Source of the DNA: a virus
Length of the DNA stretch: 25,511 nucleotides
Reading direction: 5' to 3' (one strand)
IMG/VR virus record: IMGVR_UViG_3300030099_005026
Location: 1-25,511 of that record
A model generated the notes under the pieces. It made no database searches. It saw nothing but the letters and a program-made list of their open reading frames with translations, and was not told the origin of the DNA. Position numbers and translations under genes: made by a program. Position 1 is the stretch's first letter, and each line of letters begins with the position of its first letter. Shown piece after piece: positions 1,976-23,326 of this stretch.

Positions 1976-4900
1976 TGGTCGTTGATTTAGCCACAGGCTT
2001 ATCTAAAGAAGAGTCTCCGACAAATCCTAAGTTCTCTGATAGTTCTATAACTTCTTCTCATAGAATTTATACTGCTATTGCTACAAATGGAGCAAGCACC
2101 TTTACTGCTACTGACCATACTGGCGGAACACAATATTCTAATTTAGCGACAACAAAAGGATTTAGAATTAAATGCTATGATGCTTTAACAACCACAGGCT
2201 TTCGTTTTAATCCTGGTGATTTCGCAACATATAACTATTTTGTATTAGTGTATTCAGATGATGATAAGAAACATCATTTTGCTAGAATAACTGAAATGAT
2301 AACAGAAGACTTAGAAGGAGATGCTTTTGAGTTTGAACCAAAATTAGGTAATGAAATTCCAAAAGATACAAAATTTTTAATTGTCAAAGGCCACATCAAA
2401 ACAAATACTAACATTGTTGCTTTTTCGGGAGGTATTCTAAATGATAGTATAGCATTGGATGAAAACCTTTCCTGTGCTAGACCATTGTTTTATTTCTTTG
2501 ATAGTCTTTTAGATAAGAAAAATGAATTAGACCACAACACAAAATACTATTGTATGCAAAAAAGCGGTTCGGGAACTAGTTTTGCATTTGATACTACGGA
2601 TGCTGTTGTATTTAGAACTGTTCAAGATTTTGGTAAAACAGTTATTGATTATAGTAAATTTTCTCATAGAGTTACTTTAACAGATAAATTAAGAGATTTA
2701 GATAATACTGTAAATCAAGGAGCATCTATTACTACAAATGAAGGAGCAACTATTACTGCCGACACTAATGACTATAATGCTATGTTTCCTAACGCTAGAA
2801 GAATTAGCGATGATTTGATAGCAACCCCCACATATACTGGACCAAAAAGATATTTGCATTATGATTATTCTCCTACTAAATCAAATCTTTTATATAATGT
2901 TTTTGAACATGTAAATACTGAATCTATTGATGGTAAAGGTGGTTTTTCCGAAACTTCTATTTTAGATAACGGAAGAATCATGCCTAAGAAAATTAAAGAG
3001 TTTTATGAATACAAAGTAAGACATAATATTCATCGTGGCGATATGAACGAGTTTTTCTCTTTAGCAGCAACATATTCATCAAAAACATCTAATGCTGTGT
3101 TTTCTTTCAATACTGAATATAATTTAAGTGATGTTCTAAATGCAGGAGATGAAGTCAAGTTAGGGGATAATATTTTAATTGTTCAGTCTATTGCTGGCCT
3201 AACAGGAACAACCCAAGAGATAACCTTCCAAAGCGACACACACCCCTATGTGAGAGGCGTAAATGACTCCGCTTTCACCGCACAGTCCACGACACCGACA
3301 AGCGGAGATGTGCTTCAACGGCGGGCATATAACGCAACTGATGGAACACTTATGCTAAACACACATCTGCTAAATAACCGATTTAGCAAGATGTATGTGT
3401 CTTTTACATCTTTAAACCATAATGAAAGATTTGCTAGTATTACTGCTTGTAATGCTACCACAGGTATGCTTACTTTATCTTTTACGGATGATTCGTATAA
3501 CAATAATCCTTTAAGTTTTGCTAAAGGCCAATATCAAGTATTTATTGAAAGGTTTAACGGGGAGATAGAAAATATTGAAACTAAAAAAGAAGAAGGGCAA
3601 ACTATTGTTGAAATTCAAGGTAGAGACAAATTTAATAAATTATTATCTCCTGTTGTGAATTTAAATACATTATTTAGTGAAGATATTATTTATTCTAGCA
3701 ATAGTCCATACAATAAATTAGCAAATATTAGAGCCGCATCTACATTTACTATACCATTAGGAGTTACTTTATTTCAGACTACAATTCCTGATAATGGAGA
3801 TGGTTCTAATTTTGATAATTTTCCCGTAGTAGGAACAAAATTATTTACGGCTAATGGATATATTGGGCAAGTAACTGCGTCTAGCACTTATTCTCATGGA
3901 GGTGGGCCTGCAAGACAATATTCAATTACTTCTTCTCTAACTGCCGCTAATAATGAAGCAGTTTATATGGAAACAGAAAAAAATTATATTCTTTCAAAGG
4001 CACTTGGCTCATCTCATTTTGCTGATAAAAAGGCGGCTAGTTTAACTGGTTCAGCAAATAAAGGTTTAGTTTTTACATCAGGGAACGAAATTACTTATTC
4101 TTCAGGTGCTGAGGGAGACACTTTAGTTTCATCCAGCACTAATCAGAGCGTTGGAGCAGTAGGGCATTCAATTAATAGCCCATCTAATATTAAAAATGAT
4201 TTAGCGTTTCAAGCAAAATTACATGATGAACATGGTTCTGCCTCTGCTTCTACATTTGATACTGTAAATACTTTAATTGATTTTGAAATCGTTTCTTCTA
4301 CAAAAAAAGGCAACATAACTCAAATTGAATTAGCCCCATATTTGCCTATTACATTGGGAAGAAAAATTAAAAATTATGGACAAAGTGAAGGATATACTTT
4401 AACAAATACGGAACAAGCCAATAAAAATGCTGGACTTAATGCTATACATCCAAATATTATTGAAGCAAACGGCAATATCATTAAAAATTTCAACAGAGGC
4501 GACCCAGTATTTATAGGAGCCGATACTGATAATGCTGTTTTTGCTGGATATGTTATGGTTAAAAAGTTTGAAAAGGGAACAGGAAATGGTAAATTTTTGT
4601 TGTTCTTAGACAGAGATGTAAGTTATACTGCTGGAGATAAAATATACCAAGTAAGTAAAGACACGCATGATTTAGTCTTTATTAATGGAGCGCATCTTTG
4701 GGGAGGAAAGATTTTGACTCTGCCTCATAGTAAATTGACCTCTAGTGGGCCTGTTCCATTAAACATAGAAAATATCTTTGTTAGCAACGAAGACACTAAT
4801 AAGAAATATGGACAACCCTATTACAAATCAATTGCTAAAGCAGATGGTTCCTTTAATGAAAAACCCACGCAAATTAAATCATCAATTGTCGAACTAAGAG

Positions 4901-7900
4901 AAGTTTATCCAAATGATTCTAAATTGGAACACCACTCTATTAATTACAAAATAAAGCCTAATATTTCTTCTGTAAATATTAGTGAATATGATAAAACTGG
5001 AACAGGTGATGATAACCACAGGGATTTTGATATGAGAGGATTTGGTAGCGCACATGGTTCTTTGTTAAATGGAGAAGCAAAAAGACATAGAGTTAATGTA
5101 GATGATGCAAATAAAGCAACTGACCGTTATGGAGGCTACGGAGGCTATGTTCATTTAAACACAGAATATGGAAAGGGGCTTATACATGAAGTCAGTTCAG
5201 CAGCAACACTCTTTTTGTATATTAATTCTGATATTTTACCATATTCCTCATTAAGAGGAGATAGTATTATGGATGGTAATAAAAACATCATAGACTATAA
5301 TTTACTTCTTATTGAAAACAAAAAAACAAAAGATTCTTCTCTTACATATACAAATACTACCGCAGGGAATCAAGTTCGCCTAACAGATGATAATTTTCAA
5401 ACAATAACTATACAAAACAATACTGATATTTCCTCTCTTAAAAGATTTGGAATTATGAGACTAACTGAACTTTGTTTTGATATTCACTATAACTTATTTA
5501 ATCCAGAGAAAGAAACTGTGCCTAATCAAGAATACATTAGAGTAGCACAATTAACTGGTGAGCACTTTTCTTCTGCTATTGGGACTTTGGACGCTACTTC
5601 AATTACTGATTCTATGACAGGTTCTCTTGCCTCTGAACCAACAAAAATTAAATTAGCAACAGTATCAACGAATCCAGCAAACGGAGATTTTTTATATGAT
5701 ACCAATTACAAACTTATAGGGCGAGTTAATTCTTATGATACTGGAACAAAGGTAATCACATTTACTAGCGATGTTAATTTAAATGATGATGCTTCTTTAA
5801 CTGTTGGAAATATATACAAAGATGGTGGGCAAGGAACTGCTTTCGGTCTTGAAGGAAGTAAAGATAGAGATACCTTTATGTCCGAAGATAGGGCACATAT
5901 TCAAAAAGGAGCAATTGTTAGCGGCAATTATGGTTCTCAAAGTTCAGATGCATGGCATGGATTCCACAATAATGTTATTGCTGGTTTTGCTTCAACTGAT
6001 GCAGTAGTATTCCCAATTAGGGTCAGTTATTCTAATACTCTTAATACTCCAGGAAATACACCAAGAATCTTTTTTTCAAGACCATTTTACTATATGTTAG
6101 GATTTGCTGATAATTTATATGACCATAATATAGTGGTTGCTTTAGATACATATATGATTGAAAATGGGCAAAAACATGATATTAATGCAGGGGCAACAAT
6201 TCCTCTTAGCGATGGAAGGCAGTATGACCATGATGACGCTGCTTCAACTAAAAGAAGTTTGACTATTGGGAAAACAAGCAGTAATTATATTTTTGGAGAA
6301 AAAACAAGAGGTTCATCAAACACAAAGGCCACTACTTCTCCTTATGAAGCAACAGGAATTAAAATAGGTATTAAACCAAGACTTTGGTATGATGCTTCCG
6401 AACATGATACTGTTTCATCAATAGGTTCATCAAGTGGAACTCTCTATGAATATGGTTTCAATGCCTATGCTGAAAAATTAGGCTGGATGGACATGATAGA
6501 CTTAACTGGATGCTATTTAGTATCGGAAGCAGGAAAAGATATTGATTTAGGAAAAACTGTTATAACAGGTGATGAAAATGCCGAGTCCTCAAGAAATATG
6601 AATAATGTTGTTCCTAACGATATTATTTATGTTGTTTCTCACACCGTGACTAATTCTGGTGGTTTGAAGAATCATCTTATTTTAGATAAACAATTGGTGG
6701 ATGAGTCTGCTTATCGTGTGCTTAAGCCAAACGAAACCACTTTTTATGATTATAGCCCAAAAGAAATAAAACTTAATACTTTACATTCAAAATACACTAA
6801 AATGGCAAATGAAGATAAAATGTATGATATTAATCAAGACATTGATATTGTTGAAGGAACGAGAGGAAAAACTCTTACTGGTTCAACTCCAGATAAAACG
6901 GGGCCAAACCAAGAAGCATTTCTATCAATGTATGTTGTAGTAGACCCTGATAAGCAAAGTTCTACGGAAAATCATTTGGTTATGAGAACAGACACAAATT
7001 TCTTAGAAATAATGTCTGAAGGAAATTATAACATGTATATGTCTGATGGAGAAGATAATACAAAAACTAGTCTTGAAGTTATTAAAAATGTGTCTGTTGA
7101 TGGAACTTCTTCCCCAACTCCACAAAATACTGTTGTTTTAAATTTCTCAAAAATAAAAGAAATGCAAGGGGTTGTGAGCGTTTCGGAAACATTTACTTTA
7201 GATACTGCCCAAGAAATTCAAATTGATGCTAAAAGAGCGTGTATTGGTTCAACGGTGAGTGTTGGTCTTGAAGGAGAAGACTTGATTAATGAATTACTTG
7301 AACAAGAAGGAATTGAATTTGAAACAACATCAACTGATACTCCTATGTATTTAGCACCTAATTATCAAGGATTGGATTTATTTTCAGCAATTAAATATGT
7401 TTTAGACAAAAAGGAGATGAAATTAGTTGAAGAGAACAATGTTTTTAAAATTGTTCCCGATGACACAAATGACTATTATACTAATATCATAATTGATGAT
7501 AGTGAAGAATACTTAATATCAGAGTTTGAAAAGGTTTCAACTACTTTTGATTTTTACAATGAAATTATTGTTTATGGACTATCTCACAAAGCATCAAGAA
7601 AGGACATTCGTTCTATCCAAAAAAGAGGAAGAAAGACCTTAGAAGTAGTTGATAATACTTTATTAACTCAAGAAGAAGTAAATAAACAAGCAATTAGATT
7701 ATTGCTTATTCATTCAAGAGTAAACCAAAAATTAACATTTACTATGCAAAATAAAGGAATAAATCAATTAAGACCTGGAGATATTGTAAACGTTTCTATT
7801 CCTAGAGAAAACATAGAAATGAGCGAATATATTATTTTAGAAATGGAACACCTATTGACAGGTTTTATTAAATTACAACTTGGAAGATACACAAAAGACC

Positions 7901-8169
7901 TTTCCGATATTTTCTCTGAACTTCTCGTTTCAAGCAAGGAAACAAAAGCAGCGTTGAGAAATAATGATTTAACCACTAACGAAATATCCTTTGATTTCTT
8001 GGATAGCATCAACATCAAAGGACTTAAATTATTGGTTCGCAAGCGTGAGGCATCGGGCGGTATGACCTTCGGATTCGGACAGGCGTTCAATACATCAACT
8101 GCTAAACTTGGATTTGAAGGCGGCGCAAGTATTACACTTACTGATTTATTGGAGAGGGATTTGACATGA
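1975..8169 (+). CDS. Giant baseplate-hub/tail protein, 2064 aa
   Basis: This is by far the largest gene in the window. Around residues 527-560 it has a hub-like half-barrel signature, FNGEIENIETKKEEGQTIVE followed by GRDKFNKLL. Residues about 1771-1830 contain a small alpha/beta domain (GLDLFSAIKYVLDKKEMKLV, then NVFKIVPDD). Residues about 1844-1975 resemble the second hub domain of phage-type tail proteins, with RPGDIVNVSIP and a following strand ending in IKLQLG. The roughly 1200 residues between are Asn/Thr/Ser-rich beta material, probably inserted receptor-binding or spike domains. The start overlaps the LamG stop (TAATG) behind GGAGGTGGATG. The end overlaps the next gene by ATGA. Two GC-rich patches, near 3190-3345 and 8031-8130, differ from the AT-rich rest. 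The hub role is inferred from motif shape and position. Confidence 0.7.
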   Translation: MVVDLATGLSKEESPTNPKFSDSSITSSHRIYTAIATNGASTFTATDHTGGTQYSNLATTKGFRIKCYDALTTTGFRFNPGDFATYNYFVLVYSDDDKKHHFARITEMITEDLEGDAFEFEPKLGNEIPKDTKFLIVKGHIKTNTNIVAFSGGILNDSIALDENLSCARPLFYFFDSLLDKKNELDHNTKYYCMQKSGSGTSFAFDTTDAVVFRTVQDFGKTVIDYSKFSHRVTLTDKLRDLDNTVNQGASITTNEGATITADTNDYNAMFPNARRISDDLIATPTYTGPKRYLHYDYSPTKSNLLYNVFEHVNTESIDGKGGFSETSILDNGRIMPKKIKEFYEYKVRHNIHRGDMNEFFSLAATYSSKTSNAVFSFNTEYNLSDVLNAGDEVKLGDNILIVQSIAGLTGTTQEITFQSDTHPYVRGVNDSAFTAQSTTPTSGDVLQRRAYNATDGTLMLNTHLLNNRFSKMYVSFTSLNHNERFASITACNATTGMLTLSFTDDSYNNNPLSFAKGQYQVFIERFNGEIENIETKKEEGQTIVEIQGRDKFNKLLSPVVNLNTLFSEDIIYSSNSPYNKLANIRAASTFTIPLGVTLFQTTIPDNGDGSNFDNFPVVGTKLFTANGYIGQVTASSTYSHGGGPARQYSITSSLTAANNEAVYMETEKNYILSKALGSSHFADKKAASLTGSANKGLVFTSGNEITYSSGAEGDTLVSSSTNQSVGAVGHSINSPSNIKNDLAFQAKLHDEHGSASASTFDTVNTLIDFEIVSSTKKGNITQIELAPYLPITLGRKIKNYGQSEGYTLTNTEQANKNAGLNAIHPNIIEANGNIIKNFNRGDPVFIGADTDNAVFAGYVMVKKFEKGTGNGKFLLFLDRDVSYTAGDKIYQVSKDTHDLVFINGAHLWGGKILTLPHSKLTSSGPVPLNIENIFVSNEDTNKKYGQPYYKSIAKADGSFNEKPTQIKSSIVELREVYPNDSKLEHHSINYKIKPNISSVNISEYDKTGTGDDNHRDFDMRGFGSAHGSLLNGEAKRHRVNVDDANKATDRYGGYGGYVHLNTEYGKGLIHEVSSAATLFLYINSDILPYSSLRGDSIMDGNKNIIDYNLLLIENKKTKDSSLTYTNTTAGNQVRLTDDNFQTITIQNNTDISSLKRFGIMRLTELCFDIHYNLFNPEKETVPNQEYIRVAQLTGEHFSSAIGTLDATSITDSMTGSLASEPTKIKLATVSTNPANGDFLYDTNYKLIGRVNSYDTGTKVITFTSDVNLNDDASLTVGNIYKDGGQGTAFGLEGSKDRDTFMSEDRAHIQKGAIVSGNYGSQSSDAWHGFHNNVIAGFASTDAVVFPIRVSYSNTLNTPGNTPRIFFSRPFYYMLGFADNLYDHNIVVALDTYMIENGQKHDINAGATIPLSDGRQYDHDDAASTKRSLTIGKTSSNYIFGEKTRGSSNTKATTSPYEATGIKIGIKPRLWYDASEHDTVSSIGSSSGTLYEYGFNAYAEKLGWMDMIDLTGCYLVSEAGKDIDLGKTVITGDENAESSRNMNNVVPNDIIYVVSHTVTNSGGLKNHLILDKQLVDESAYRVLKPNETTFYDYSPKEIKLNTLHSKYTKMANEDKMYDINQDIDIVEGTRGKTLTGSTPDKTGPNQEAFLSMYVVVDPDKQSSTENHLVMRTDTNFLEIMSEGNYNMYMSDGEDNTKTSLEVIKNVSVDGTSSPTPQNTVVLNFSKIKEMQGVVSVSETFTLDTAQEIQIDAKRACIGSTVSVGLEGEDLINELLEQEGIEFETTSTDTPMYLAPNYQGLDLFSAIKYVLDKKEMKLVEENNVFKIVPDDTNDYYTNIIIDDSEEYLISEFEKVSTTFDFYNEIIVYGLSHKASRKDIRSIQKRGRKTLEVVDNTLLTQEEVNKQAIRLLLIHSRVNQKLTFTMQNKGINQLRPGDIVNVSIPRENIEMSEYIILEMEHLLTGFIKLQLGRYTKDLSDIFSELLVSSKETKAALRNNDLTTNEISFDFLDSINIKGLKLLVRKREASGGMTFGFGQAFNTSTAKLGFEGGASITLTDLLERDLT

Positions 8170-8540
8170 TAACTGATGAACTTAAAAAACAACTTGTTTC
8201 CCACCTTAAAAGCATTATTACTAGTGCTAAAATAGGCTTGGGAGGTAATTCAACTAATCCTATATCAACTGATTTAGATGTTCCATTAAGTGTTTCTCCT
8301 ACATTAGTCAAAACTGAATCTGATTTGAATGTATTAGAAATTAAAGTTTCAGTAGCAGGTAGTTCTATTCAAGGACAGGTTATTCGTGAAGTTGGTTTGT
8401 TTGATGACAATACTTTATCAGCCCATGCTTCAAGAAGTCCTAGAGTAGATTACTCTCTATTTAGAACTAACTTTGACGGAGTTGGCCCATTTTCCACAAC
8501 AGAAACATTAGAACTGTTTATTTTATTGGAGGTTGAATAA
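8166..8540 (+). CDS. Small tail-fibre adaptor/collar-like protein
   Basis: This 124-residue protein has an N-terminal helix (LKKQLVSHLKSIITSAKIGLG), then beta strands (LNVLEIKVSVAGSSIQGQVI) and REVGLFDDN near residue 80. The REVGLFD pattern and the ending ELFILLEVE resemble the N-terminal domains of tail-collar or tail-fibre proteins that fix fibres to baseplates. It starts with an ATG that overlaps the hub stop (ATGA, 8166-8169) and is followed directly by the fibre gene. The assignment is a weak family resemblance strengthened by gene order. Confidence 0.55.
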   Translation: MITDELKKQLVSHLKSIITSAKIGLGGNSTNPISTDLDVPLSVSPTLVKTESDLNVLEIKVSVAGSSIQGQVIREVGLFDDNTLSAHASRSPRVDYSLFRTNFDGVGPFSTTETLELFILLEVE

Positions 8541-11007: not shown

Positions 11008-12482
11008 TCTATATCACCTGCGATGTATTTAACATACTTGCTTTGCCCAATTTTTGTTTCTTCAAACTTATGTTGAATTGATGCGTAGTTGCGATAGACT
11101 TGAGATTGTGATTTCTTAGATTTCTTTTTCACAGTCTCAAACAATTTTCCTTTGTGAACAAATCCTTCTTCATTTTTGTCAAGAACCTCAAATGCTTTCT
11201 TGAAGATTGATTCATCAGCCTTTTCCGCAACCGACTTCTGCCGCACCCGTAGGCTTCGCTCCAACCAATCAACCAATGTCATATAAGACTGTCGGACAAT
11301 AGTTGCGGCTTGACGGACATTATGCCCAGTTACTATGAATCTATCGTTTTTATTTTTAATTGAAGGTGCAGATGCAACACTACATAGAACTGCCATTTTC
11401 ATCAGAATTTTCATCAATCTGGTAGTAAAATTTGACGCAATCGCTTCAACTTCGGGGCGAGTATTCCAAAGATAATTGTTCATGTTATTGTATTCTAATC
11501 TGAGAACATCGTTGTAATCTGGTGAATACCTCATCACTTTAAGCGGGTCGCCTCCTACTTCTCTAAATCTTTCCTCAACCAATTCATAAATAGTAAATAA
11601 AGCATTTGAATACCTTTCAATCTCTTGCTCAACAGGAATATATTTTCCTGCTTGGCGAATCTGTTCAAGACGCATTTTATGTTGAATGAACTTAGGGACT
11701 TCCCAAACAAACAAAAGCATTCTTTGAAGAACACCCTTTTCAGCCATAACATCATTTAGATTGTTAGGAGGATAAGTCATAGCCATAACAGAACGCTCAG
11801 AGAAGCATTCCATAACTTGATTCTCAAAAGAAGTCAGAGCCTTTGAGATAATCCAAGATTCTCCCGCCAATGAATTCATTAGAGTATTCATATATACAAT
11901 AGACTTTTCTTGATGCTGGCTTTGTTTAAAGATACCTGAATATTCAAATTCATCCCAATGAGCCAAACCATTTCCTTCCAATTGACCAGCAATTCTTTCC
12001 CAGACGATTTCTCCTTCATCATCAAATTCTTTCTTAAATCCACCAATAAGAACAGAATCTGTGTAATCTGTCAAACCAAAAACATCAAAAGTTCTTTTCA
12101 TCGTTGGTCTATCCTTTAGAGCCAAGGATGGATGCTTTCCTTTATCGTTAATTCTTTTAAATACATTTTTTGAAACAGGCCCAACAAAGTTCCACAATGT
12201 AGATTTGCCAGTTCCGCTTGTTTGAACCCAACAAAAATGTATTCGGGTATCTTCAAGATTGCTTCCACTTGGGACATAGATAAAGTCTTTGACAATTTGT
12301 CCAAGGATTGTAAAGAAAGAAATACCAGCAGGAATATCATTATAATGGGAAAACTTTACTGCTTCCCCCTGAAAATCCCTAATTACTTTAGGTAATGCTT
12401 CTCTAAATACAGACGCATTGGCTTCAAAATTATCCCAATACGAATCCATGTCTTCGTTTTCATATAAATTTTCTTCTTTCAT
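11004..12482 (-). CDS. P-loop ATPase, probable replicative helicase (DUF3987-like)
   Basis: This 492-residue protein has Walker A QTSGTGKST (residues 87-95) and Walker B GLAHWDEFE (about 172-180, Asp177 and Glu178). A possible arginine finger lies in GVLQRMLLFVWEV. The N-terminal part (PKVIRDFQGEAVKFSHYNDI, then PAGISFFTILG) resembles the region before the P-loop in DUF3987/primase-associated helicase-like proteins. A C-terminal winged-helix-like segment (FVHKGKLFETVKKKSKKSQS, about 438-457) could bind DNA. Sitting with primase, polymerase and clamp genes, and with no MCM or DnaB in view, it is the best replicative helicase candidate. It starts at ATG 12482 behind AGGTGA and overlaps the nuclease stop (ATGA). 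The ATPase call is firm; the helicase role is inference. Confidence 0.7.
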   Translation of the reverse strand: MKEENLYENEDMDSYWDNFEANASVFREALPKVIRDFQGEAVKFSHYNDIPAGISFFTILGQIVKDFIYVPSGSNLEDTRIHFCWVQTSGTGKSTLWNFVGPVSKNVFKRINDKGKHPSLALKDRPTMKRTFDVFGLTDYTDSVLIGGFKKEFDDEGEIVWERIAGQLEGNGLAHWDEFEYSGIFKQSQHQEKSIVYMNTLMNSLAGESWIISKALTSFENQVMECFSERSVMAMTYPPNNLNDVMAEKGVLQRMLLFVWEVPKFIQHKMRLEQIRQAGKYIPVEQEIERYSNALFTIYELVEERFREVGGDPLKVMRYSPDYNDVLRLEYNNMNNYLWNTRPEVEAIASNFTTRLMKILMKMAVLCSVASAPSIKNKNDRFIVTGHNVRQAATIVRQSYMTLVDWLERSLRVRQKSVAEKADESIFKKAFEVLDKNEEGFVHKGKLFETVKKKSKKSQSQVYRNYASIQHKFEETKIGQSKYVKYIAGDIE

Positions 12483-13168
12483 ATTTTCACCTTCTCTTCC
12501 GAGTTCAATGTGGAGATTATTCTGTTGGCTAAAGTTTCTCCAATTCCTTCAACGGCTTGTAATTCGTAAGCCGAACACTCGCCTATTTCCATAATAGAGC
12601 CAAATTGTTTTATTAGTTGTTTTGCCTTTTTAATAGATACGCCTTTGATGCTACTTAGTAAATCAATTCTTAAATCATCTGTTGTTAATCTTTTAAATAC
12701 TTGTGGGGCTATTGTTTCTCTCGTTAATGGTTTCATCTTACTTACTGCGGTTATAATCAATGCTGCTTCTTCTTCTGTTTGCACCCAAAAGGGCTTAATG
12801 TCTGTATCAAGAACAATTCTACCGATTGCTCCAAGAAATTTATTATTTAACATAATACTTCTTGAACCGACTGTCATGTTGCTTTTTGAATTTTCAATAA
12901 CATTTAAAATTGCTTCTTGCATATCGCCATGAATAATTACAATATTAGTAGCATAATGTCTATCCATGTTGTCTAATTGAGTCCACAATCTTTTGGACAT
13001 TACTGAACCTAAGAAATCCGTTGTTGATTTCGCTTCAAAGCAAACATCATCAAAAACATAATCACCAATTTCTAACCATTTGGTTTCAGTTGGTATCTGC
13101 ATGGCTTTTGCTTTCTGCAAAACTAATTTAGCCAATTTCGATTTTTCTCTTGAATCAATAACAAGCAT
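12479..13168 (-). CDS. XPF/Mus81-family (ERCC4) structure-specific nuclease
   Basis: This 229-residue nuclease contains the ERCC4 domain (about 1-140): IDSRE (Asp5, Glu8), GDYVF (35-39) and FEAKSTTDFLGSV with Glu45, Lys47 and Asp51. The last corresponds to the catalytic ERKxxxD motif, with Ala replacing Arg. Two helix-hairpin-helix elements follow, LLSSIKGVSIKKAKQLIKQF (170-189) and LQAVEGIGETLANRIISTL (203-221). The family cuts branched DNA such as flaps and forks, typically as dimers. No helicase domain is attached, as in the short archaeal XPF form. The start at ATG 13168 has SD GGAGGT (8-nt spacing) lying inside the overlapping microprotein gene. Confidence 0.87.
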   Translation of the reverse strand: MLVIDSREKSKLAKLVLQKAKAMQIPTETKWLEIGDYVFDDVCFEAKSTTDFLGSVMSKRLWTQLDNMDRHYATNIVIIHGDMQEAILNVIENSKSNMTVGSRSIMLNNKFLGAIGRIVLDTDIKPFWVQTEEEAALIITAVSKMKPLTRETIAPQVFKRLTTDDLRIDLLSSIKGVSIKKAKQLIKQFGSIMEIGECSAYELQAVEGIGETLANRIISTLNSEEKVKI

Positions 13169-14583: not shown

Positions 14584-15495
14584 TCACAACCATGAATCAT
14601 TCTGTGCCGCTTCACAAATTCCATAATAAGAACAATACTGAGAACAGGTTTTCATGTAAAATGAAGCAGGGAAATGCCCTTGTTCATAAGTATAAATTAA
14701 CTTAGCAATATTATCCCAAAGAGCCGTCATTGAACGCTTCAAAACAGGTTCAACTGTAATATGGTTAGCAACAGGATAATACCAACCCCAATGGCTAACT
14801 TCCATATCTTTTGTCAAACCGTGTTTTTCAAGCACTTCTTCGGGTGCATTATCAATCATCAGTTTATAGAAAGCCATTTCTTGACGCATAGAAGAAGTCT
14901 TAGAATCTTTCCAACTGCCTGTCTTATATTCAAAGGGAATTAGTTTCCCATTCTCAATAAACACACGGTCAATGATACCTTGAAGTCTCACGACATAATC
15001 TCGTTGTAAAGGATATTTCTTACTTACATTCTTAGGAATAGTAATTTCACAATCAAATACTTTTTCATTGATTACTGGTAAAAATTCATCAATTCTTTCT
15101 TCACTTCTTGCCTCAATGAAGCGTTGTGCCTCAAATGCGGCGACTGTTAATGAGAGGTCATAATACTCATCAATCGGCATAAGGCTGGTGCAGTATTCAA
15201 GAACCTCTGAATTATTCATGGCTTCTGCCTTTTTAATGTCAAATTCATTAAAGAATTCTTCACGGTAGTTGTGAAGAATAGTTCCCTTTCTCATCGCTTC
15301 TGTTTGGTCAGTCGGCAATCGTTGAATATATTGAAATTCATATTTCTTATTGCACCAACCGAAAGAACCCACCAAAGAAGATTTACTAATCTTCAAAATT
15401 GGCTTTGATGGGTCGTCTGCATTTTCAGGCTTCCAATCATAAGTAAAGTCCCTCATGGACTTAATTCTTGCTTCATATTTTTCATCTTTGTTCAA
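14584..15495 (-). CDS. Cas4/RecB-like PD-(D/E)XK nuclease with Fe-S cysteines
   Basis: This 303-residue nuclease of the PD-(D/E)XK superfamily has all family motifs: KGTILH (His75), GIIDRV (Asp176), PFEYKTG (Glu189, Lys191) and QEMAFYKLM (Gln205). It carries the four cysteines of the AddB/Cas4 iron-sulfur cluster, Cys48 (FGWCNKKYEF) and C-terminal Cys284, Cys288 and Cys294 (CSQYCSYYGIC). Such enzymes resect or process DNA ends, often during recombination or packaging. No cas genes are near, so this is a viral recombination nuclease rather than CRISPR machinery. I place the start at TTG 15495, 6 nt after GGAGGA and overlapping the polymerase stop (TTGA). ATG 15501 in the same frame lies only 1 nt after the SD. 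Confidence 0.8.
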   Translation of the reverse strand: MNKDEKYEARIKSMRDFTYDWKPENADDPSKPILKISKSSLVGSFGWCNKKYEFQYIQRLPTDQTEAMRKGTILHNYREEFFNEFDIKKAEAMNNSEVLEYCTSLMPIDEYYDLSLTVAAFEAQRFIEARSEERIDEFLPVINEKVFDCEITIPKNVSKKYPLQRDYVVRLQGIIDRVFIENGKLIPFEYKTGSWKDSKTSSMRQEMAFYKLMIDNAPEEVLEKHGLTKDMEVSHWGWYYPVANHITVEPVLKRSMTALWDNIAKLIYTYEQGHFPASFYMKTCSQYCSYYGICEAAQNDSWL

Positions 15496-16385
15496 AACCA
15501 TTCCTCCAATGTTTTTTGTATTCTTCCTGTTCTAATACTGGATAAATCCCAGTTCATAGCCTTAAAAATAGGCTCGGCTTTCTTCAAAACCTGTTCAGCG
15601 TAGTGTTCCAAGTCAGGAACAAGGCCGCTAAAATCCTTCATTTCAACTCCCGATATAAACTCAACGGCTCGTTTTTCATGCGTCAAGGGATGAGTATAAA
15701 CATCATTTACACCCCTTACTTTCAAAAATAAATATGAGTCGTCAAAATTAGCATCATATTTTTCCCAAGCATATAAAACACCAGCAATACCTGAACCAAT
15801 TGACGGCTTCTTTCCTTCAAGTGTAGTAAAATTCTTCGTTGGAGAAGCACACTTTGGACAAGCCCCATATTTCATAGAGATACAGTCTTTCAAATGAAAT
15901 TTTGAACGACATTCGGGACATTTTACTTCAAAGCGATTTCTTCTCAGTCGGCTTCTCTTGATGAATGAATCAAGAGGCATTTTACCAGACATGATTTCTT
16001 CATAGGTTTTATGAAGAGAAGCAACAATTTCTTCTTGCTTTTTCTCACCAACCCACATTTTAAGAGTCCGAGTTTGCACCTCTTTCGCCATTTTTGTTTC
16101 ACTAACTCGTTTTGCAGTAAAACCTGTCATTGTGAATTTTGGCTCATCAAGCCATGTTCCATCATCCCAAGTAATTAATCCTGCGTTTCTGTTTTTTGTA
16201 GTGCCGACCCCAAGAGCAGAATAAAACTTTTCAAATTCCAAACTGACGGGATGCTGTTCAAGTCCGAGAACATTCGGGAAACTTTTTTTGACTTCATCTT
16301 CAATCACCTTAATTGCTTGTTGTGCGGCTTCTACGGAATCAATTTGCACATAAATAGAATCTGTATGTCCATAAACCACTTTCAT
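15492..16385 (-). CDS. polB: DNA polymerase B, C-terminal part (motif C, thumb, PIP box)
   Basis: This 297-residue polypeptide begins MKVVYGHTDSIY and carries polymerase motif C as YGHTDS (residues 5-10; the usual YGDTDS with His for the first Asp and the second catalytic Asp9 kept). Next come TKNRNAG (compare KKRYAG) and GFTAKRVSETKMAKEVQ (from 88), which match the palm-thumb region of archaeal PolB. Residues 156-179 hold CPEC, C and CPKC, a zinc-ribbon-like insertion. It ends QKTLEEWF (290-297), a PIP-box-like peptide for PCNA binding. The start is ATG 16385, 3 nt after GAGCGTGAT. With the protein at 17327-18994 it would make one complete polymerase. Confidence 0.87.
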   Translation of the reverse strand: MKVVYGHTDSIYVQIDSVEAAQQAIKVIEDEVKKSFPNVLGLEQHPVSLEFEKFYSALGVGTTKNRNAGLITWDDGTWLDEPKFTMTGFTAKRVSETKMAKEVQTRTLKMWVGEKKQEEIVASLHKTYEEIMSGKMPLDSFIKRSRLRRNRFEVKCPECRSKFHLKDCISMKYGACPKCASPTKNFTTLEGKKPSIGSGIAGVLYAWEKYDANFDDSYLFLKVRGVNDVYTHPLTHEKRAVEFISGVEMKDFSGLVPDLEHYAEQVLKKAEPIFKAMNWDLSSIRTGRIQKTLEEWF

Positions 16386-16389
16386 TTTA

Positions 16390-16590
16390 TCACGCTCGGT
16401 AATGTGTAAATAGCAACCCAACAGGAACGCCTGCTAATTTTGCTACTTCTTCTTGTATTTCTGTAATTTGAGATTTTAGATTTTGAAGATTCTGCATATC
16501 AACATACAAAGAATCTAATTCCTCTGCAATTTGTTCTTTCATTTTTTTAATTTCTTTAAGTGTTTCTAAATATACTCTATCATCGGTCAT
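16390..16590 (-). CDS. 66-aa coiled-coil protein in the polymerase gap
   Basis: This short protein is mostly one long charged helix with heptad spacing (LKEIKKMKEQIAEELDSLYV, then QNLKSQITEIQEEVAKL), consistent with a coiled coil over residues 9-52. The last residues (VPVGLLFTHYRA) are less helical. It starts with ATG 16590, overlapping the stop of the 29-aa membrane protein (ATGA), with GGTGGT upstream. It ends 4 nt before the PolB C-terminal part, whose SD overlaps its stop. It belongs to no family I recognise and may dimerise or act as a spacer or partner of the split polymerase (inference). Confidence 0.6.
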   Translation of the reverse strand: MTDDRVYLETLKEIKKMKEQIAEELDSLYVDMQNLQNLKSQITEIQEEVAKLAGVPVGLLFTHYRA

Positions 16591-16676
16591 AATACCACCA
16601 CCAGTAATGTAATGATTGTCGCAATATTAACTACATTGACCATCATCAAAATTTTGTTGCTTCTGTTAATCATCAT
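16587..16676 (-). CDS. 29-aa membrane microprotein in the polymerase gap
   Basis: A tiny ORF (MMINRSNKILMMVNVVNIAT, then IITLLVVVL) is almost entirely a single hydrophobic span over residues 9-29, with a short basic N-terminus. GGAGG at 16689-16685 gives an 8-nt spacing to ATG 16676. A second ATG follows at once. The stop overlaps the next start (ATGA). Without it there would be an unexplained 105-nt gap in a tightly packed operon. Function unknown. Confidence 0.5.
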   Translation of the reverse strand: MMINRSNKILMMVNVVNIATIITLLVVVL

Positions 16677-16695
16677 CAATAATTCCTCCAGCAAT

Positions 16696-16869
16696 TCATT
16701 CGTTCTGTCCATCATCATCTTCATTCACACCTTGCTCAATATCTACAATGATAGCGTTTCGTTTTAGATTATTCATCATTTGAAATATCTCTTTGACTTC
16801 CTGCATTGTAATATCATAGGTTTCTTCACTATCATAAGACAGTTTGACTGTAATATACTTAGTTTTCAT
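16696..16869 (-). CDS. 57-aa acidic small protein in the polymerase gap
   Basis: This 57-residue protein has a beta-hairpin start (MKTKYITVKLSYDSEETYDI), a helix (TMQEVKEIFQMMNNLKRNA) and an acidic tail (VNEDDDGQNE). ATG 16869 is chosen because GGAGG lies 7 nt upstream; longer frame readings would place the SD inside the gene. It overlaps the end of the winged-helix-like gene by 11 nt. No family is recognised. Confidence 0.55.
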   Translation of the reverse strand: MKTKYITVKLSYDSEETYDITMQEVKEIFQMMNNLKRNAIIVDIEQGVNEDDDGQNE

Positions 16870-17083
16870 CTGTAATCCTCCAATATGTTCTTTTGTTCTT
16901 TTGGTCAATAACTGTCAAAAGACTTCTATGCTTAGATAAATAAGCACCAATGCTGGTAGTATTCTCAAGATACTTAAGAGTCTTACCATAATCAATAAGT
17001 CTGTCTTTCATCTGATTTGCAGAAAAACCATCATGCATTTCAGGTATAAGTTCATCAATCCACTTTTGTAAAAATTTATTCAT
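16859..17083 (-). CDS. 74-aa winged-helix-like small protein in the polymerase gap
   Basis: This short protein has helices (NKFLQKWIDELIPEM, then FSANQMKDRLIDYGKTL) followed by SIGAYLSKHRSLLTVIDQ and KRTYWRITDEN. The last part looks like a wing (strand, turn, strand) after a recognition-like helix, so DNA binding is plausible. ATG 17083 sits 4 nt after AGGTGAT. The start overlaps the preceding gene's stop by 8 nt. The architecture resembles the 86-aa protein at 23066-23326, but no clear homology can be claimed by eye. Confidence 0.55.
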   Translation of the reverse strand: MNKFLQKWIDELIPEMHDGFSANQMKDRLIDYGKTLKYLENTTSIGAYLSKHRSLLTVIDQKNKRTYWRITDEN

Positions 17084-17330
17084 GTTTATCACCTAGTTTT
17101 GTAAACGGCCCAGAAATTTCTGTTATTTTTTCATGAAAGAGATAATTACAACAAAGAACAACTAAAGGTAGTCTACAAACCTTTTCTCCATCTATTTCAA
17201 TCTCAATAATCTGTCTATCAACCTTATTTTTAGAAGGGTGTTCTGTAATATAATAGTGAATATATTCATACTCATTTAATTTATCATATAATGTGTAATA
17301 TTCTTCTTCTTCTGGTCTATAATATCTCAT
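17076..17330 (-). CDS. 84-aa Tyr-rich hypothetical protein in the polymerase gap
   Basis: This 84-residue protein has a Tyr/Glu-rich N-terminus (MRYYRPEEEEYYTLYDKLNE) and a beta-like centre (RQIIEIEIDGEKVCRLPLVV) with two adjacent cysteines (LCCNYL). The ATG overlaps the stop of the PolB N-terminal part (ATGA), and the SD (AAAGGAGATG) lies inside the last polymerase codons, so translation is coupled to it. No family is recognised. Confidence 0.55.
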   Translation of the reverse strand: MRYYRPEEEEYYTLYDKLNEYEYIHYYITEHPSKNKVDRQIIEIEIDGEKVCRLPLVVLCCNYLFHEKITEISGPFTKLGDKHE

Positions 17331-18994
17331 ATTTTCATCTCCTTTGCTTTAAATGCGGCAAGTCTAATTGCTTCTCTTGCACTTGCAGTAATAGATGCAG
17401 CCAAATCAACATCAGCCCAACCAAATCCTTGAAAGGCAACAATGCCATAAAAAGAAGCCATTAATCTCTTGACAGCCATTTGATTGTTATACCACTTTGC
17501 ATACTCGCCGTTGTCCTCCTTTTGTGCTTGATACATAAGTCGCTTATATTCATTTCGCAACTCCTTCAATTCAAGAACGGCTCTCGGTAAAAGACCAAGT
17601 TTATCTGTTTTATAGTAAAGCATATCTTGGTATTTAACTTCACTAAAATCTCTTGGCGTAAGAATGTTCACGGCAAATTCTGTTGGTTGTTTTGATTTTG
17701 TTTCCCAACTGATATTGCGAGCAATCATCATTGAAGGATATAGACCAGCAAAATCAAAGGCGGCTACATTCAAATGTAATCCATTTGTTTCTTCGCTTAA
17801 TGGGTCATAAATCATCGCACCTTCATATTCTTTGCGTTCATCAACCTTTTTTCCTGTTGGTGCTTTCCAAGTAGCATTTCTCATAAAATAAATACTACCC
17901 ATGTGAGAAGCATAAAAACAAGCATCAAATGGTGCTTTCAATAGCCTTTGAAGTGAAAGAATGGCTTCACTACAAAAATTTTTCTCATCAATTTCAACCA
18001 TCAATTCAACATCTCTCAAAGCATATTTGAGGTATGTTTGTGTATCTTCTAACCAACCCTTGCGATAAAATTCGTTAGTGTCTGGAAACTTCTCAGAAAC
18101 CAATTTCTTTTTGTTAAGAACAGTCTCTCCGATGTAATCAAGCGATAAAGAAGGTAATGTCCCTCTTTGACTGTCATTCCATTGTCTTTCAAAAGCAAGG
18201 TCTAACGAGAGGGTTATGCGACCCCCTACGGGTTGCTCAATGGGAGAGAACCCACTTTCACCATAGGCGAAAGAGAAGCCATCCTTGACCTTTTTAACGC
18301 CCTTAACGAAGCCAATTGGAGACATGATACGAGGGTCAAGACCCACGGCACACGCCCGTTCAAATAATTTCGGTAAATCAGCAAAATGACCAAACCAAGC
18401 AATTAACATATCGGGGTCTTTTACAATCATTGTAGTCATAAAATGTTCAATCATTTCTCTTTCAGAAGGAAAATAGTGGCCTTCCCAATCACTTCTTTCA
18501 TGTGAAGTATAATCCCAATGTTGGTCTTGATTAGGAAACCAAGCCCATTGATAGTATTTCTCATCGTAGTTATCATAAACAACAATAGTAGTCAATTGGT
18601 CGTGATATTCTCCGCCTTGTTGCCATTCCATATCCCAATACCACTTACGCAGTTTATATTCAGGCATTTCATCTAATTCATCAACACAATACCGAAAATG
18701 CAAAGGAACATCTGCTTCATAGGTTTCATTCCACATCTTCTTTGCATTACGAATATCATTGGCGTTTTCAACAAAAACTTTCTTCAAAGGTTTCCCTTCA
18801 AGATTAGTCCAATCGCCACGAAGATACTCAAAATCCCTAGTGATATATTTACTTGGCGAATAACTAGGAAATTCAGTAGCCTCTTCATCCACAAAGAAAT
18901 ATGGTCTGAAATTAACCATCTCATACTTTCTTTCATTGTTCTCTCTCCATGCTTTGTATATTCTCATTCCATCATTCATTTTATTAATAATCAT
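17327..18994 (-). CDS. polB: DNA polymerase B, N-terminal part (exonuclease, motifs A and B)
   Basis: This 555-residue polypeptide holds the N-terminal, exonuclease and first palm/fingers regions of a family B polymerase. ExoI is WYWDMEW (Asp121, Glu123). ExoII is AWFGHFADLPKL (Asp206 kept, the usual Asn and Phe replaced). ExoIII is YALRD (Tyr324, Asp328). Motif A is DFAGLYPSM (414-422). Motif B is KRLMASFYG (509-517, Ala where Asn is usual). It stops at FKAKEMKI, just where the strand leading to motif C should begin. No intein sequence is visible at the end. ATG 18994 is chosen (GGTGAT 4 nt upstream); a GTG at 19003 in frame is rejected. A GC-rich patch covers about residues 210-268. Confidence 0.88.
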   Translation of the reverse strand: MIINKMNDGMRIYKAWRENNERKYEMVNFRPYFFVDEEATEFPSYSPSKYITRDFEYLRGDWTNLEGKPLKKVFVENANDIRNAKKMWNETYEADVPLHFRYCVDELDEMPEYKLRKWYWDMEWQQGGEYHDQLTTIVVYDNYDEKYYQWAWFPNQDQHWDYTSHERSDWEGHYFPSEREMIEHFMTTMIVKDPDMLIAWFGHFADLPKLFERACAVGLDPRIMSPIGFVKGVKKVKDGFSFAYGESGFSPIEQPVGGRITLSLDLAFERQWNDSQRGTLPSLSLDYIGETVLNKKKLVSEKFPDTNEFYRKGWLEDTQTYLKYALRDVELMVEIDEKNFCSEAILSLQRLLKAPFDACFYASHMGSIYFMRNATWKAPTGKKVDERKEYEGAMIYDPLSEETNGLHLNVAAFDFAGLYPSMMIARNISWETKSKQPTEFAVNILTPRDFSEVKYQDMLYYKTDKLGLLPRAVLELKELRNEYKRLMYQAQKEDNGEYAKWYNNQMAVKRLMASFYGIVAFQGFGWADVDLAASITASAREAIRLAAFKAKEMKI

Positions 18995-18999
18995 TATTA

Positions 19000-19764
19000 T
19001 CACCCGTTAATCTGCGGTGCTTTCACTAACATTCTATCTTCTGCTACCATAAGAATAGGGAAATCGTCTTTCAAATAAATATTCACCATCTGCTGTTTTT
19101 CAAACAAAGAATACAAAGGCCCACTAAACTCAACCGTTGCTGATTCTCCTATGTTAAAGAAAGGTTCAATGGTTTCTTCATATTTATTACTCGCACCATC
19201 TCTTGATGATACTGAAAGAATCTCTTCGTGGTAATTAAATTTGTATACTCCTGTTTTCACTAATTCACAATTTTTGATTGCATCTCGTAATTGCACCTGC
19301 ATAAGACTAATACCCGCTTCAAACTTTGATTTACCAAAAGTAAAAAGCATCCGAGGCATGACCTCATAACTTACATGATTCAATAAACCACGCATTCTTG
19401 AAATAGAATCTCCTTGTGGGTGGCGAACCACCAAAGGAATAGATGCCTTTCTGGTATCAGAAGTTAATTGAATAAAATCTCCAACTACAAAATTTATTTC
19501 ATCTTTGAACGATTTAAGATACGGAGCAACTTTCGTAGTATCAATGACGACATTACCATCTTCTTCACCTTCAACTGTCAAATTTAATTTAACGGCAACA
19601 GTATTATTGCCGTTCCAAATAGAAAGAACATTACCTTCCAAATACAGAGAGGCATAGTTTCCAAGACTCGTATTCCCGAATCCACTTCCACCAATACCTT
19701 TTCCTTTCATTTGAACTTTGGTTAATGCCTTTTCTAATTTTTCACTATCTATTGTAAATTTCAA
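19000..19764 (-). CDS. pcn: PCNA-like DNA sliding clamp
   Basis: This 254-residue protein has the length and outline of archaeal PCNA, a ring-forming processivity factor for polymerase and nucleases. It begins KFTIDSEKLEKALTKVQ, has an interdomain region near 120-135, and ends YLKDDFPILMVAEDRMLVKA followed by PQING, the typical final strand and 'AP-I' ending. The start is TTG 19764, overlapping the RecA-fold gene's stop (TTGA) with GGAGGGT 6 nt upstream. It lies directly before PolB, whose C-terminal part ends in a PIP-like box. Domain sequence is divergent, but context and ending make the call strong. Confidence 0.82.
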   Translation of the reverse strand: MKFTIDSEKLEKALTKVQMKGKGIGGSGFGNTSLGNYASLYLEGNVLSIWNGNNTVAVKLNLTVEGEEDGNVVIDTTKVAPYLKSFKDEINFVVGDFIQLTSDTRKASIPLVVRHPQGDSISRMRGLLNHVSYEVMPRMLFTFGKSKFEAGISLMQVQLRDAIKNCELVKTGVYKFNYHEEILSVSSRDGASNKYEETIEPFFNIGESATVEFSGPLYSLFEKQQMVNIYLKDDFPILMVAEDRMLVKAPQING

Positions 19765-20579
19765 ATCTTACCCTCCCGCATTTCAGGAATACCGTCCCAA
19801 GAAACATTTCCGCCACCAACGGTCAATGATTCCCAAGACTTTCCAACAAGCGATGTATTGGTTTTACTACTGAGTAATTCAGCCTTATACACAACATCGT
19901 TCTTTTTGCGGGTTCGTCGGGTTGTAATGATTTGATGGAGGTAATCTCCCCAGTTATGCCAGTTTGGTTTAGAACCAATAACTTCTCCTGTTGCACCATA
20001 ATCAGCCTTTGAGTGGGTGATGTAGATTTGGTCGCAGTTAAGGTTCTTACACATCATCAAAAGAGAATAAAAGGGAGCGTTTCGCTTTCCCCATTCAAAC
20101 TTCATCTTTTGAGGCTTTCCAATCTTTGAAGACCCAGTTACATGTAAAGTGCAACAATCAAGCCATTTATCCACACCATCAAAAACAAAGAGAACATTTT
20201 CACCCTCTTCAATCTTTGATTTAACATACAAAACAAAGTCTTCGGAATTTGCTTCCGACTTTTGAATATCCAATTCACCATTTTTGTTTCGCACTTCAGG
20301 ATTCCAAAGAGTAATCCTATCGGTCATTTCATGGTTTTGTCGCCATGTTGGTTCACAACCATCATCCCAGTCAAGAACATAAATTTGCTTATCTGGGAAA
20401 TCAAGAGCCAAACCGCTTTTAACAGTCTTTGGTTCTCCCCAAATACCACAAATAAGACGATTGTTTCTAGCCAATCGTCCTTCTGTTTGTTTTGCTAACT
20501 TATCCTTAAATGCAACAACTCTTGCGTTGTTCACCATTCCTTCATCAACTTCAATCTTTTTTCCACTAGTTAATCCCAT
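19761..20579 (-). CDS. RecA/RadA-fold ATPase
   Basis: This 272-residue NTPase has a P-loop at GEPKTVKS (48-55; Val where Gly normally precedes Lys), followed by YVLDWDDG (67-74) and Walker B VLFVFDG (129-135, Asp134). Residues ITHSKADYGATGEVIGSKPN look like a RecA-type mobile loop. The compact fold resembles phage RecA/Sak4-like and AAA_24 ATPases that load recombinases or anneal strands. The start is ATG 20579 with GGTGAT 4 nt upstream. The altered P-loop could reduce or change nucleotide use. A recombination role is inferred from fold and neighbours. Confidence 0.7.
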   Translation of the reverse strand: MGLTSGKKIEVDEGMVNNARVVAFKDKLAKQTEGRLARNNRLICGIWGEPKTVKSGLALDFPDKQIYVLDWDDGCEPTWRQNHEMTDRITLWNPEVRNKNGELDIQKSEANSEDFVLYVKSKIEEGENVLFVFDGVDKWLDCCTLHVTGSSKIGKPQKMKFEWGKRNAPFYSLLMMCKNLNCDQIYITHSKADYGATGEVIGSKPNWHNWGDYLHQIITTRRTRKKNDVVYKAELLSSKTNTSLVGKSWESLTVGGGNVSWDGIPEMREGKI

Positions 20580-22151: not shown

Positions 22152-23063
22152 TTATAGTAATTGACCCATCATCCATGATACTAACACTTTCGGGGTCATT
22201 GTGTTAGAACGCCATTCGCTTTCGCCTAATGTCCGTAGGAATTTAAATTTCGTTGCCGAATCCAGATTCTCTGCATTAATAACTGCGTCATGCAAACCGA
22301 TACAAATATCTCTTACTGACTTACCATCATACAAGAAATCATGAACTTTGCTGAGAGCATTTGCATTTTTATTCGTAATTAAAATTAACAATTCGTTATA
22401 TTCAGTCAAACCGATTTCAAGTTGTTTTGATAGAGGGGAATTGCTTGCTTTAGCCGCTTGCAGTTCGGTTATCCCTCGTCTTAAATCACCGTGAAGAGAG
22501 TATATAAAGGGCTTCATCTCGTCTGCGGTAAATCGGGTTATTTCTTCACGCTTGAGAATTGATTGTAATACATCAAGCATGACCTCATTAGATAGAGGTT
22601 TAAAATGATAATTTGCACATCTGCTTTGAAGCGCAAAGATAATTTTATTTCTATCATTACAGGTAATAATGAAACGAATATTACTTGCATATCGTTCCAT
22701 AATTCTCTTCAAGGCATTTTGAGCATCAGTAGTCATACCGTCCATCTCATCAAGAAGAATCATTCTAAATGGAACATCACCGATAGTTCCGCTTTGAGCA
22801 TAGTTCTTAATAGTAGTTCGCACAGTCTCTAAACGCCTATCATCTGAAGCATTCACTTCAATAAAATTATCATTGAAGTTTTCGCCTAATACTTCTCTCG
22901 CTATAACTATTCCTGCTCCTGTTTTACCAGTTCCAGGATTTCCGTATAATAGAAGATTAGGGACATCTTTTTCTTCAATCCAACTTCTAGCGTCCATTAC
23001 AAAATGTTCTTGTCCTTTAATTTCTTTGATTGTTTTTGGTCTATATTTTTCTGTCCATAGCAT
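22152..23063 (-). CDS. rfcS: Replication factor C small subunit (clamp loader)
   Basis: This 303-residue AAA+ clamp-loader subunit opens and loads PCNA on primed DNA. It shows the RFC box (WTEKYRPKTIKEIKGQEH at the start), Walker A GNPGTGKT (41-48), NASDDR (about 71-76), Walker B MILLDEMD (101-108), the NALKRIME helix and the SRC motif in LQSRCANYHF (147-149, arginine finger). The C-terminal collar domain is slightly short compared with about 320 residues for archaeal RfcS. The start is ATG 23063 with GGAGGA 7 nt upstream; an earlier in-frame ATG at 23087 precedes that SD and is rejected. Confidence 0.93.
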   Translation of the reverse strand: MLWTEKYRPKTIKEIKGQEHFVMDARSWIEEKDVPNLLLYGNPGTGKTGAGIVIAREVLGENFNDNFIEVNASDDRRLETVRTTIKNYAQSGTIGDVPFRMILLDEMDGMTTDAQNALKRIMERYASNIRFIITCNDRNKIIFALQSRCANYHFKPLSNEVMLDVLQSILKREEITRFTADEMKPFIYSLHGDLRRGITELQAAKASNSPLSKQLEIGLTEYNELLILITNKNANALSKVHDFLYDGKSVRDICIGLHDAVINAENLDSATKFKFLRTLGESEWRSNTMTPKVLVSWMMGQLL

Positions 23064-23065
23064 TT

Positions 23066-23326
23066 TTATTCCTCCTTTAATTTCCATAGAGCAGGTTGTT
23101 GGCTCTTATCATTGACTCTAATGCAACCATATTTACCATTAGCCAGCATACCAACTAACACAGTATAATTAGGTATAACTGCTCTTTTTTTAGTTCTGTA
23201 AGGCCTATTAGAACCATTGTTCTCAAAAGAAGGAAGGTCAATAATTGCATCATGAATTTGTCTTGATGACATAATTTTTCCTCCTTCTAATACTTTATGA
23301 ATTAATCTTTGATATTGTTTTTTCAT
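23066..23326 (-). CDS. 86-aa winged-helix-like protein
   Basis: This basic 86-residue protein has helices (MKKQYQRLIHKVLEG, then SSRQIHDAIIDL) followed by VLVGMLANGKYGCIRVND and a final strand (QPALWKLKEE). This outline fits a winged helix-turn-helix. ATG 23326 overlaps the stop of the RFC-L-like gene (ATGA), with GGAGGA 7 nt upstream. It ends 2 nt before RFC-S. A DNA-binding or regulatory role is possible but inferred. Confidence 0.6.
   Translation of the reverse strand: MKKQYQRLIHKVLEGGKIMSSRQIHDAIIDLPSFENNGSNRPYRTKKRAVIPNYTVLVGMLANGKYGCIRVNDKSQQPALWKLKEE

Follow-up and report, generated by a model that had tools for sequence, protein, structure and literature searches.

Organization and domain content of the split polymerase

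The window analyzed here, a stretch of 25,511 nucleotides (positions 1 to 25,511) that forms part of a 27.6-kb virus record of IMG/VR (IMGVR_UViG_3300030099_005026), encodes a family B DNA polymerase (PolB) in two separate genes. Both genes lie in a replication cluster on the minus strand. PolB-N (17327–18994) comprises 555 amino acids (aa) and ends in AAFKAKEMKI before its stop codon, and PolB-C (15492–16385) comprises 297 aa and begins with MKVVYGHTDS. The gap from the PolB-N stop to the PolB-C start (16386–17326) contains five small open reading frames (ORFs). A preliminary description of this DNA had placed a split between polymerase motifs B and C; its coordinates, reading frames, and end sequences for both halves were exact, and the spacer that it gave as about 940 nucleotides (nt) with five small ORFs measures 941 nt, with same-strand ORFs of 84, 74, 57, 45, and 66 codons.

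Both halves exceeded the Pfam cut-off of 23 bits for DNA_pol_B (PF00136), PolB-N scoring 66.8 bits over profile positions 37–193 and PolB-C 44.3 bits over positions 222–371. PHROG 262 was likewise covered by PolB-N at positions 19–560 and by PolB-C at positions 574–722. PolB-N additionally contains the complete exonuclease domain (PF03104). The residues for 3'-5' exonuclease activity (Exo I, D121/E123; Exo II, D206; Exo III, Y324xxxD328), palm motif A (D414, DFAGLYPS), and fingers motif B (K509...S514FY516G517) were all assigned to PolB-N, and the palm strand with motif C (YGHTDS), the rest of the palm, the thumb, and a C-terminal PCNA-interacting protein (PIP) box, QKTLEEWF, to PolB-C. Together, the two halves hold Exo I–III and motifs A, B, and C, the set of motifs by which family B is recognized. 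In alignments restricted to the window and related-locus sequences, the Exo I–III residues, the motif A Asp, the Lys, Tyr, and Gly of motif B, and the second Asp of motif C were invariant among both split and fused forms. Of 85 unique split loci, 82 encode the C-terminal PIP box (QxxLxxWF type), which most fused haloviruses share. The PolB-C thumb contains a Cys4 zinc-ribbon-like insert in 57 of the 85, and the haloviruses were without it.

Next, we examined how the halves fit together. The AlphaFold2 model of PolB-N (predicted local distance difference test score, pLDDT, of 90.7) aligned over residues 1–555 with residues 2–533 of the KOD and 9N polymerases (Z ~27.7), and the model of PolB-C (pLDDT 88.9) matched the PolB palm and thumb (Z ~15.6); the alignment of the PolB-C sequence to these polymerases starts at their residue 535. 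In a tblastn comparison with the intact PolB of HCTV-7, residue 555 of PolB-N ended at 43539 and residue 2 of PolB-C began at 43535; the single codon between them corresponds to the PolB-C start methionine. The MAFFT alignment of HCTV-7 NEESIANVAYGDTDS with AKEMKI joined to MKVVYGHTDS was gapless across the joint. The joined halves were therefore collinear with intact halovirus polymerases to within ~1 residue, and the statement of the preliminary description that no sequence is missing held to this single residue. The separately encoded parts thus cover complementary portions of one PolB and meet at an exact junction, as is characteristic of a two-cistron split PolB. The split point follows the long helix that comes after motif B and precedes the motif-C strand. 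Because HATV-2, HGTV-1, and 44RR carry extra residues at this position in the alignment, it is a length-variable turn.

Distribution and origin of the split

Related loci were collected by six scans of IMG/VR and one scan of GTDB genomes and classified with profile hidden Markov models of the N- and C-parts. The resulting 297 public loci (numbered with the prefix L) comprised 189 split loci, 55 fused loci, and 53 loci with the N-part only. Once identical sequences were removed, 125 unique split loci remained, drawn from many metagenomes, and PolB-C begins at the same residue in all 125 (121 ATG, 2 GTG, and 2 TTG start codons). In the loci with the N-part only, the contig mostly ends soon after PolB-N; L189, with 1802 nt downstream of PolB-N, is still inside the known range of gap lengths, and L168 and L181 fall outside the split clade. 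No fused polB was found in the split clade among members whose contigs extend far enough.

Fused genes characterize the nearest relatives of the split clade, namely the haloviruses as well as a marine clade in which the replication genes have the same order. In a maximum-likelihood tree of the N-parts, which was a quick, midpoint-rooted reconstruction with some distant fused members on long branches, one change explained the distribution of split and fused forms. The split clade received a Shimodaira–Hasegawa-like approximate likelihood ratio test (SH-aLRT) value of 98, and its pairing with a fused marine sister clade (L165, L169, L171, and L173) a value of 100. The sister clade shares with the split clade the gene order RFC, g418, Sak4, PolB, RecB, g347, and ERCC4. 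Since the nearest relatives are fused and one change on the tree suffices, the split arose once, by a fission in the ancestor shared by all members of the split clade.

Motif C is YGHTDS in all split loci (YAHTDS in some) rather than YGDTDS, a detail on which the preliminary description did not comment, so that His occupies the place of the first Asp by which family B is otherwise recognized. The fused sister clade mostly has His at this position as well, in the form seen in the window (e.g., L165 and L213–L228), and Phe in L173 and L223. Because YGHTDS is present in most of these one-chain genes, the Asp-to-His change most likely predates the split. We regard this His as a variant within family B, one by which the Pfam assignment is not overturned.

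The two halves have also been maintained in parallel. Median ratios of nonsynonymous to synonymous substitution rates (dN/dS) were 0.175 and 0.180 for PolB-N and PolB-C, respectively; both halves are under equal purifying selection. The distance matrices of the N- and C-parts correlated with r = 0.90, and the best of 2000 permutations reached 0.45. In contigs of 88–97 kb, which are close to full length, there was no PolB match beyond the two halves and no PolA.

Some loci departed from this general pattern. A 184-kb contig (3300021958_000021; 184,733 bp) holds two different split polB loci, L005 and L130, and in L020 (3300021959_000409) the N-part resembles that of L005 and the C-part that of L130. 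Natural swapping of halves was considered for this case, and chimerism was judged likelier, since the N-part of L020 is itself a mosaic and L005 and L130 are on one contig; the pattern probably reflects chimeric assembly and possibly recombination. The one match of the GTDB scan, L304 (NZMJ01000151.1), encodes a magrovirus-type PolB on a contig assigned to a Maricaulis metagenome-assembled genome and is probably a misbinned virus contig.

Genes in the gap between the halves

The length of the gap ranged from -4 nt, an ATGA overlap in L176 that may reflect an indel in a single contig, to 2819 nt. In the window, gap ORF 1 (17076–17330; minus strand, as are the other four; 84 aa) has a start that overlaps the PolB-N stop (ATGA) and is rare, occurring in 3 of 85 unique gaps. 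The remaining ORFs belong to four families present in 88–111 of 130 gaps and under purifying selection, with median dN/dS of 0.12–0.21. ORF 2 (16859–17083; 74 aa; 88 gaps; dN/dS 0.17) is winged-helix-like by eye, with no match in Pfam; ORF 3 (16696–16869; 57 aa; 111 gaps; dN/dS 0.12) is acidic; ORF 4 (16587–16724; 45 aa; 111 gaps; dN/dS 0.16) has a hydrophobic C-terminus; and ORF 5 (16390–16590; 66 aa; 103 gaps; dN/dS 0.21) is coiled-coil-like, with 4 nt separating its stop from the start of PolB-C. A 4-nt overlap of the first gap gene with the PolB-N stop was seen in 87 of 130 loci. None of the four families was found in the gaps of twelve deep-branching split loci that we checked.

Some gaps carry a gene for an HNH endonuclease (PF01844 in L079). 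Comparison of L207 (6650–7156) with the gap of L204 showed the same 42-codon gap gene in both, preceded in L207 by an inserted HNH-like gene, likely the result of a recent homing event. Median distances along the cluster were 6 nt from the immediately upstream clamp-like gene to PolB-N, 883 nt from PolB-N to PolB-C, and -2 nt from PolB-C to the RecB-like gene; insertions in the replication cluster are concentrated between the PolB halves. A Shine–Dalgarno-like motif preceded PolB-C in a fraction of 0.90 of the unique loci versus 0.21 of random positions (0.31 versus 0.03 for its strict form).

A coiled-coil gene resembling gap ORF 5 lies directly downstream of fused polB in L171 (5575–5796) and L173 (7133–7360). 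This gene prompted us to consider whether the split arose when polB was duplicated in tandem and the copies underwent reciprocal loss, an origin that was not adopted. The resemblance could be a hint of fission via duplication or an effect of coiled-coil composition bias. In deep-branching split lineages, other small genes, some of them coiled-coil-like, lie downstream of PolB-C, and the four gap families are missing, so that the match in L171 and L173 may be such a bias.

A probable two-subunit polymerase and alternative explanations

Judged from sequence, PolB-N and PolB-C very probably constitute a two-subunit replicative family B polymerase that assembles non-covalently from separately made halves and is tethered to a clamp via PolB-C; non-covalent assembly had already been proposed in the preliminary description and was the reading best supported by our analysis. 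Each half, with its own start and stop, would be translated separately from one same-strand cluster, which may be cotranscribed. PolB-N would provide the exonuclease, motif A, and the fingers, and PolB-C would provide motif C, the thumb, and the PIP box, with the two chains folding together into one palm. Because the metal-binding Asp residues of motifs A and C are on different chains, the active site would be shared between the chains, and neither half alone should polymerize. The PIP box would tether the enzyme to the neighboring virus-encoded clamp, its presumed partner. The ancestral gene was divided once, and small genes, sometimes including one for an HNH endonuclease, gathered between the halves later. 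Polymerase activity of the pair is a prediction, and some observations weigh against this reading. As His replaces the first motif C Asp in every split member, catalysis is not to be assumed, an objection tempered by the predominance of the same His in the one-chain sister clade. Moreover, confidence in the isolated PolB-C model was low over the initial residues (block mean 68), as expected of a strand modeled without its partner.

Several other explanations were weighed. The halves could be covalently rejoined by a split or degenerate intein in the manner of Nanoarchaeum equitans, given that motif C is a favored intein site, that such an element is present at YGDTD^S in the fused halovirus-like PolB of L148, and that the split PolB of phage MIJ3 is accompanied by a split intein and HNH (PMC6892783). 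We consider such rejoining highly improbable, because only a few residues separate the end of PolB-N from the palm helix, and PolB-C begins M-x-V-V-Y-(G/A)-H-T-D-S, with no intein attached in the window or its relatives. In the split loci examined, there was no room at either end for an IntN on the N-half or an IntC on the C-half, and the absence of intein residues, as reported in the preliminary description, was confirmed at both ends. The 4-nt overlap of the ORFs in L176 leaves no room for an intein or an intron. The L148 intein is located ~8 residues downstream of the split point; the split is therefore not at that intein site, and an intein-derived fission was not supported. A continuous mRNA could alternatively be produced if the gap were an intron (group I, group II, or archaeal bulge-helix-bulge) or if the halves were trans-spliced; HNH-bearing insertions do invade halovirus PolB genes, as in L143, and HNH genes occur in some gaps. 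This explanation is scarcely more plausible than the previous one, since the ends of the gap are variable along with its length and gene content, and the in-frame stop and the start codons with their Shine–Dalgarno-like sites are conserved. A gathering search of the window against Rfam matched no family and so revealed no self-splicing intron of the group I type, as in phage 25 43B or possibly L143, in the gap. The turnover and insertion of gap genes indicate that the gap is a site of gene gain, not an intron.

The halves may instead not form a polymerase at all, with PolB-N acting as a stand-alone exonuclease, PolB-C as a clamp- or DNA-binding factor, and host polymerases replicating the genome. 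The His in motif C, the invariant exonuclease residues of PolB-N, and the acquisition of the Cys4 insert by PolB-C in most members would fit this scenario. It appears improbable in view of the invariant motif A, motif B, and second motif C residues, the co-evolution of the halves, the His in ordinary one-chain genes of the sister clade, and the clamp and clamp loader encoded by the virus. An assembly error or pseudogene has a negligible probability and was refuted by the survey: PolB-N stops early (after NEFYRRA) in a single relative, L047, through a sequencing error or as a decaying copy, whereas the same junction and purifying selection were observed in the 125 unique split loci, which come from many metagenomes. 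The preliminary description had named a continuous gene in related genomes and misassembly as grounds for rejecting the split, and had suggested a search of related viral contigs; this search returned the 189 split loci divided at the same residue, with no continuous gene in the clade where contigs reach far enough. Beyond the two-subunit polymerase itself, the fission could be adaptive, with separate dosage or timing of PolB-N and PolB-C switching between degradation or proofreading and synthesis, and with gap proteins regulating or scaffolding the heterodimer; we regard this extension as unlikely.

Comparison with known split polymerases

The split PolB3 of Methanobacteriales was reportedly described by Kelman in 1999. 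The Methanothermobacter PolB consists of two polypeptides (PMC7776575), and this two-polypeptide archaeal PolB resembles that of the window but belongs to the cellular PolB3 lineage. Erratic intein excision was suggested as its origin (Makarova 2014; PMC4104785). In Nanoarchaeum equitans, PolB is also encoded by two genes (NEQ068 and NEQ528), but these are joined by a split intein (PMC4104785), no parts of which are present in the window. Among viruses, the T4-like Aeromonas phages 44RR and 25 encode PolB in two cistrons without an intein, as in the window, and a homing endonuclease may intervene (PMC2988022). The 43A and 43B proteins of phage 25 co-purify with polymerase activity (PMC2988022) and, like the Methanothermobacter enzyme, provide a precedent for a PolB made of two chains. 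The 44RR split, however, is in the fingers before motif B, leaving motifs B and C on one chain, whereas in magroviruses the cut separates these two motifs and, unlike those of 44RR and 25, is fixed in a large clade.

Haloviruses with an intact B5-like PolB (HCTV-7, HF2, HGTV-1, and HATV-2) showed full-length homology with the joined halves, a collinear junction, and, in most cases, a PIP box at the same position. Their PolB differs in being encoded by a single gene, in having YGDTDS or GGDTDS as motif C, and in lacking the zinc-ribbon-like insert. Insertions were observed in halovirus-like genes of the survey. L148 (IMGVR_UViG_3300007038_000001, 5001–8489) contains an intein of ~340 aa inside motif C of PolB (YGDTD^S ... 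VHN^S). In L143 (IMGVR_UViG_3300019927_000016, 4980–8410), the C-terminal region of PolB is interrupted by ~0.8 kb that includes an ORF for an HNH-type endonuclease and may be an intron together with its endonuclease.

The split itself has been seen before in this virus group, as the 2023 ICTV profile of Aoguangviridae (PMC10768690) labels PolB-NTD and PolB-CTD on the map of a Poseidoniales virus of the order Magrovirales. According to this published map, Aoguangviridae virus YSH_150918 (ON649702) has a labeled split PolB and a gene cluster of the same kind as the window. The profile text that we consulted does not discuss the split, its site, its origin, or the intervening genes. Kazlauskas et al. 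placed the magrovirus PolB near B5 and T4-like enzymes (2020; PMC7544198), and a word search of that article found no mention of the split. It was thus labeled on a genome map but apparently never studied, and the survey, the single origin, the exact junction, the His motif, and the gene-filled gap are new.

If correctly interpreted, this is a replicative polymerase divided in its palm, with its catalytic Asp residues on different chains, that has been kept in a large clade of ocean viruses with no exception detected. It would represent a clear case of fission of a core-enzyme gene in which both the single origin and the later accretion of genes can be traced. A natural two-part polymerase cut between motifs B and C is also a candidate scaffold for split-polymerase engineering. 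For annotation, the locus is a warning, since each half alone resembles a truncated polymerase.

Replication cluster and other features of the window

All genes of the replication cluster are on the minus strand, in the order RFC-like loader, Sak4-like protein, clamp-like protein, PolB-N, five small ORFs, PolB-C, RecB-like nuclease, and ERCC4-type nuclease. The 254-aa sliding-clamp-like protein (19000–19764) matched the processivity factor family PHROG 947 (E = 1.5e-5) and had no match in Pfam. It is preceded by the Sak4-like protein (19761–20579) and by the RFC-like AAA+ clamp-loader protein (22152–23087; PF00004 and PF08542). The PD-(D/E)XK or RecB-like nuclease (14584–15501; PF12705) is directly downstream of PolB-C and overlaps its end, a synteny kept in both split and fused relatives, and the ERCC4-type nuclease (12479–13168; PF02732) is syntenic in the fused sister clade. 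A single cluster that combines PolB with a clamp-like protein, an RFC-like loader, and ERCC4 and RecB-like nucleases agrees with Magrovirales, and we infer from gene content that the window comes from a magrovirus-like tailed virus, whose archaeal host is likewise presumed. Outside the cluster, with no Pfam match at an E-value of 0.001, an ORF of 2064 aa (1975–8169) occupies the plus strand, opposite to the replication genes.

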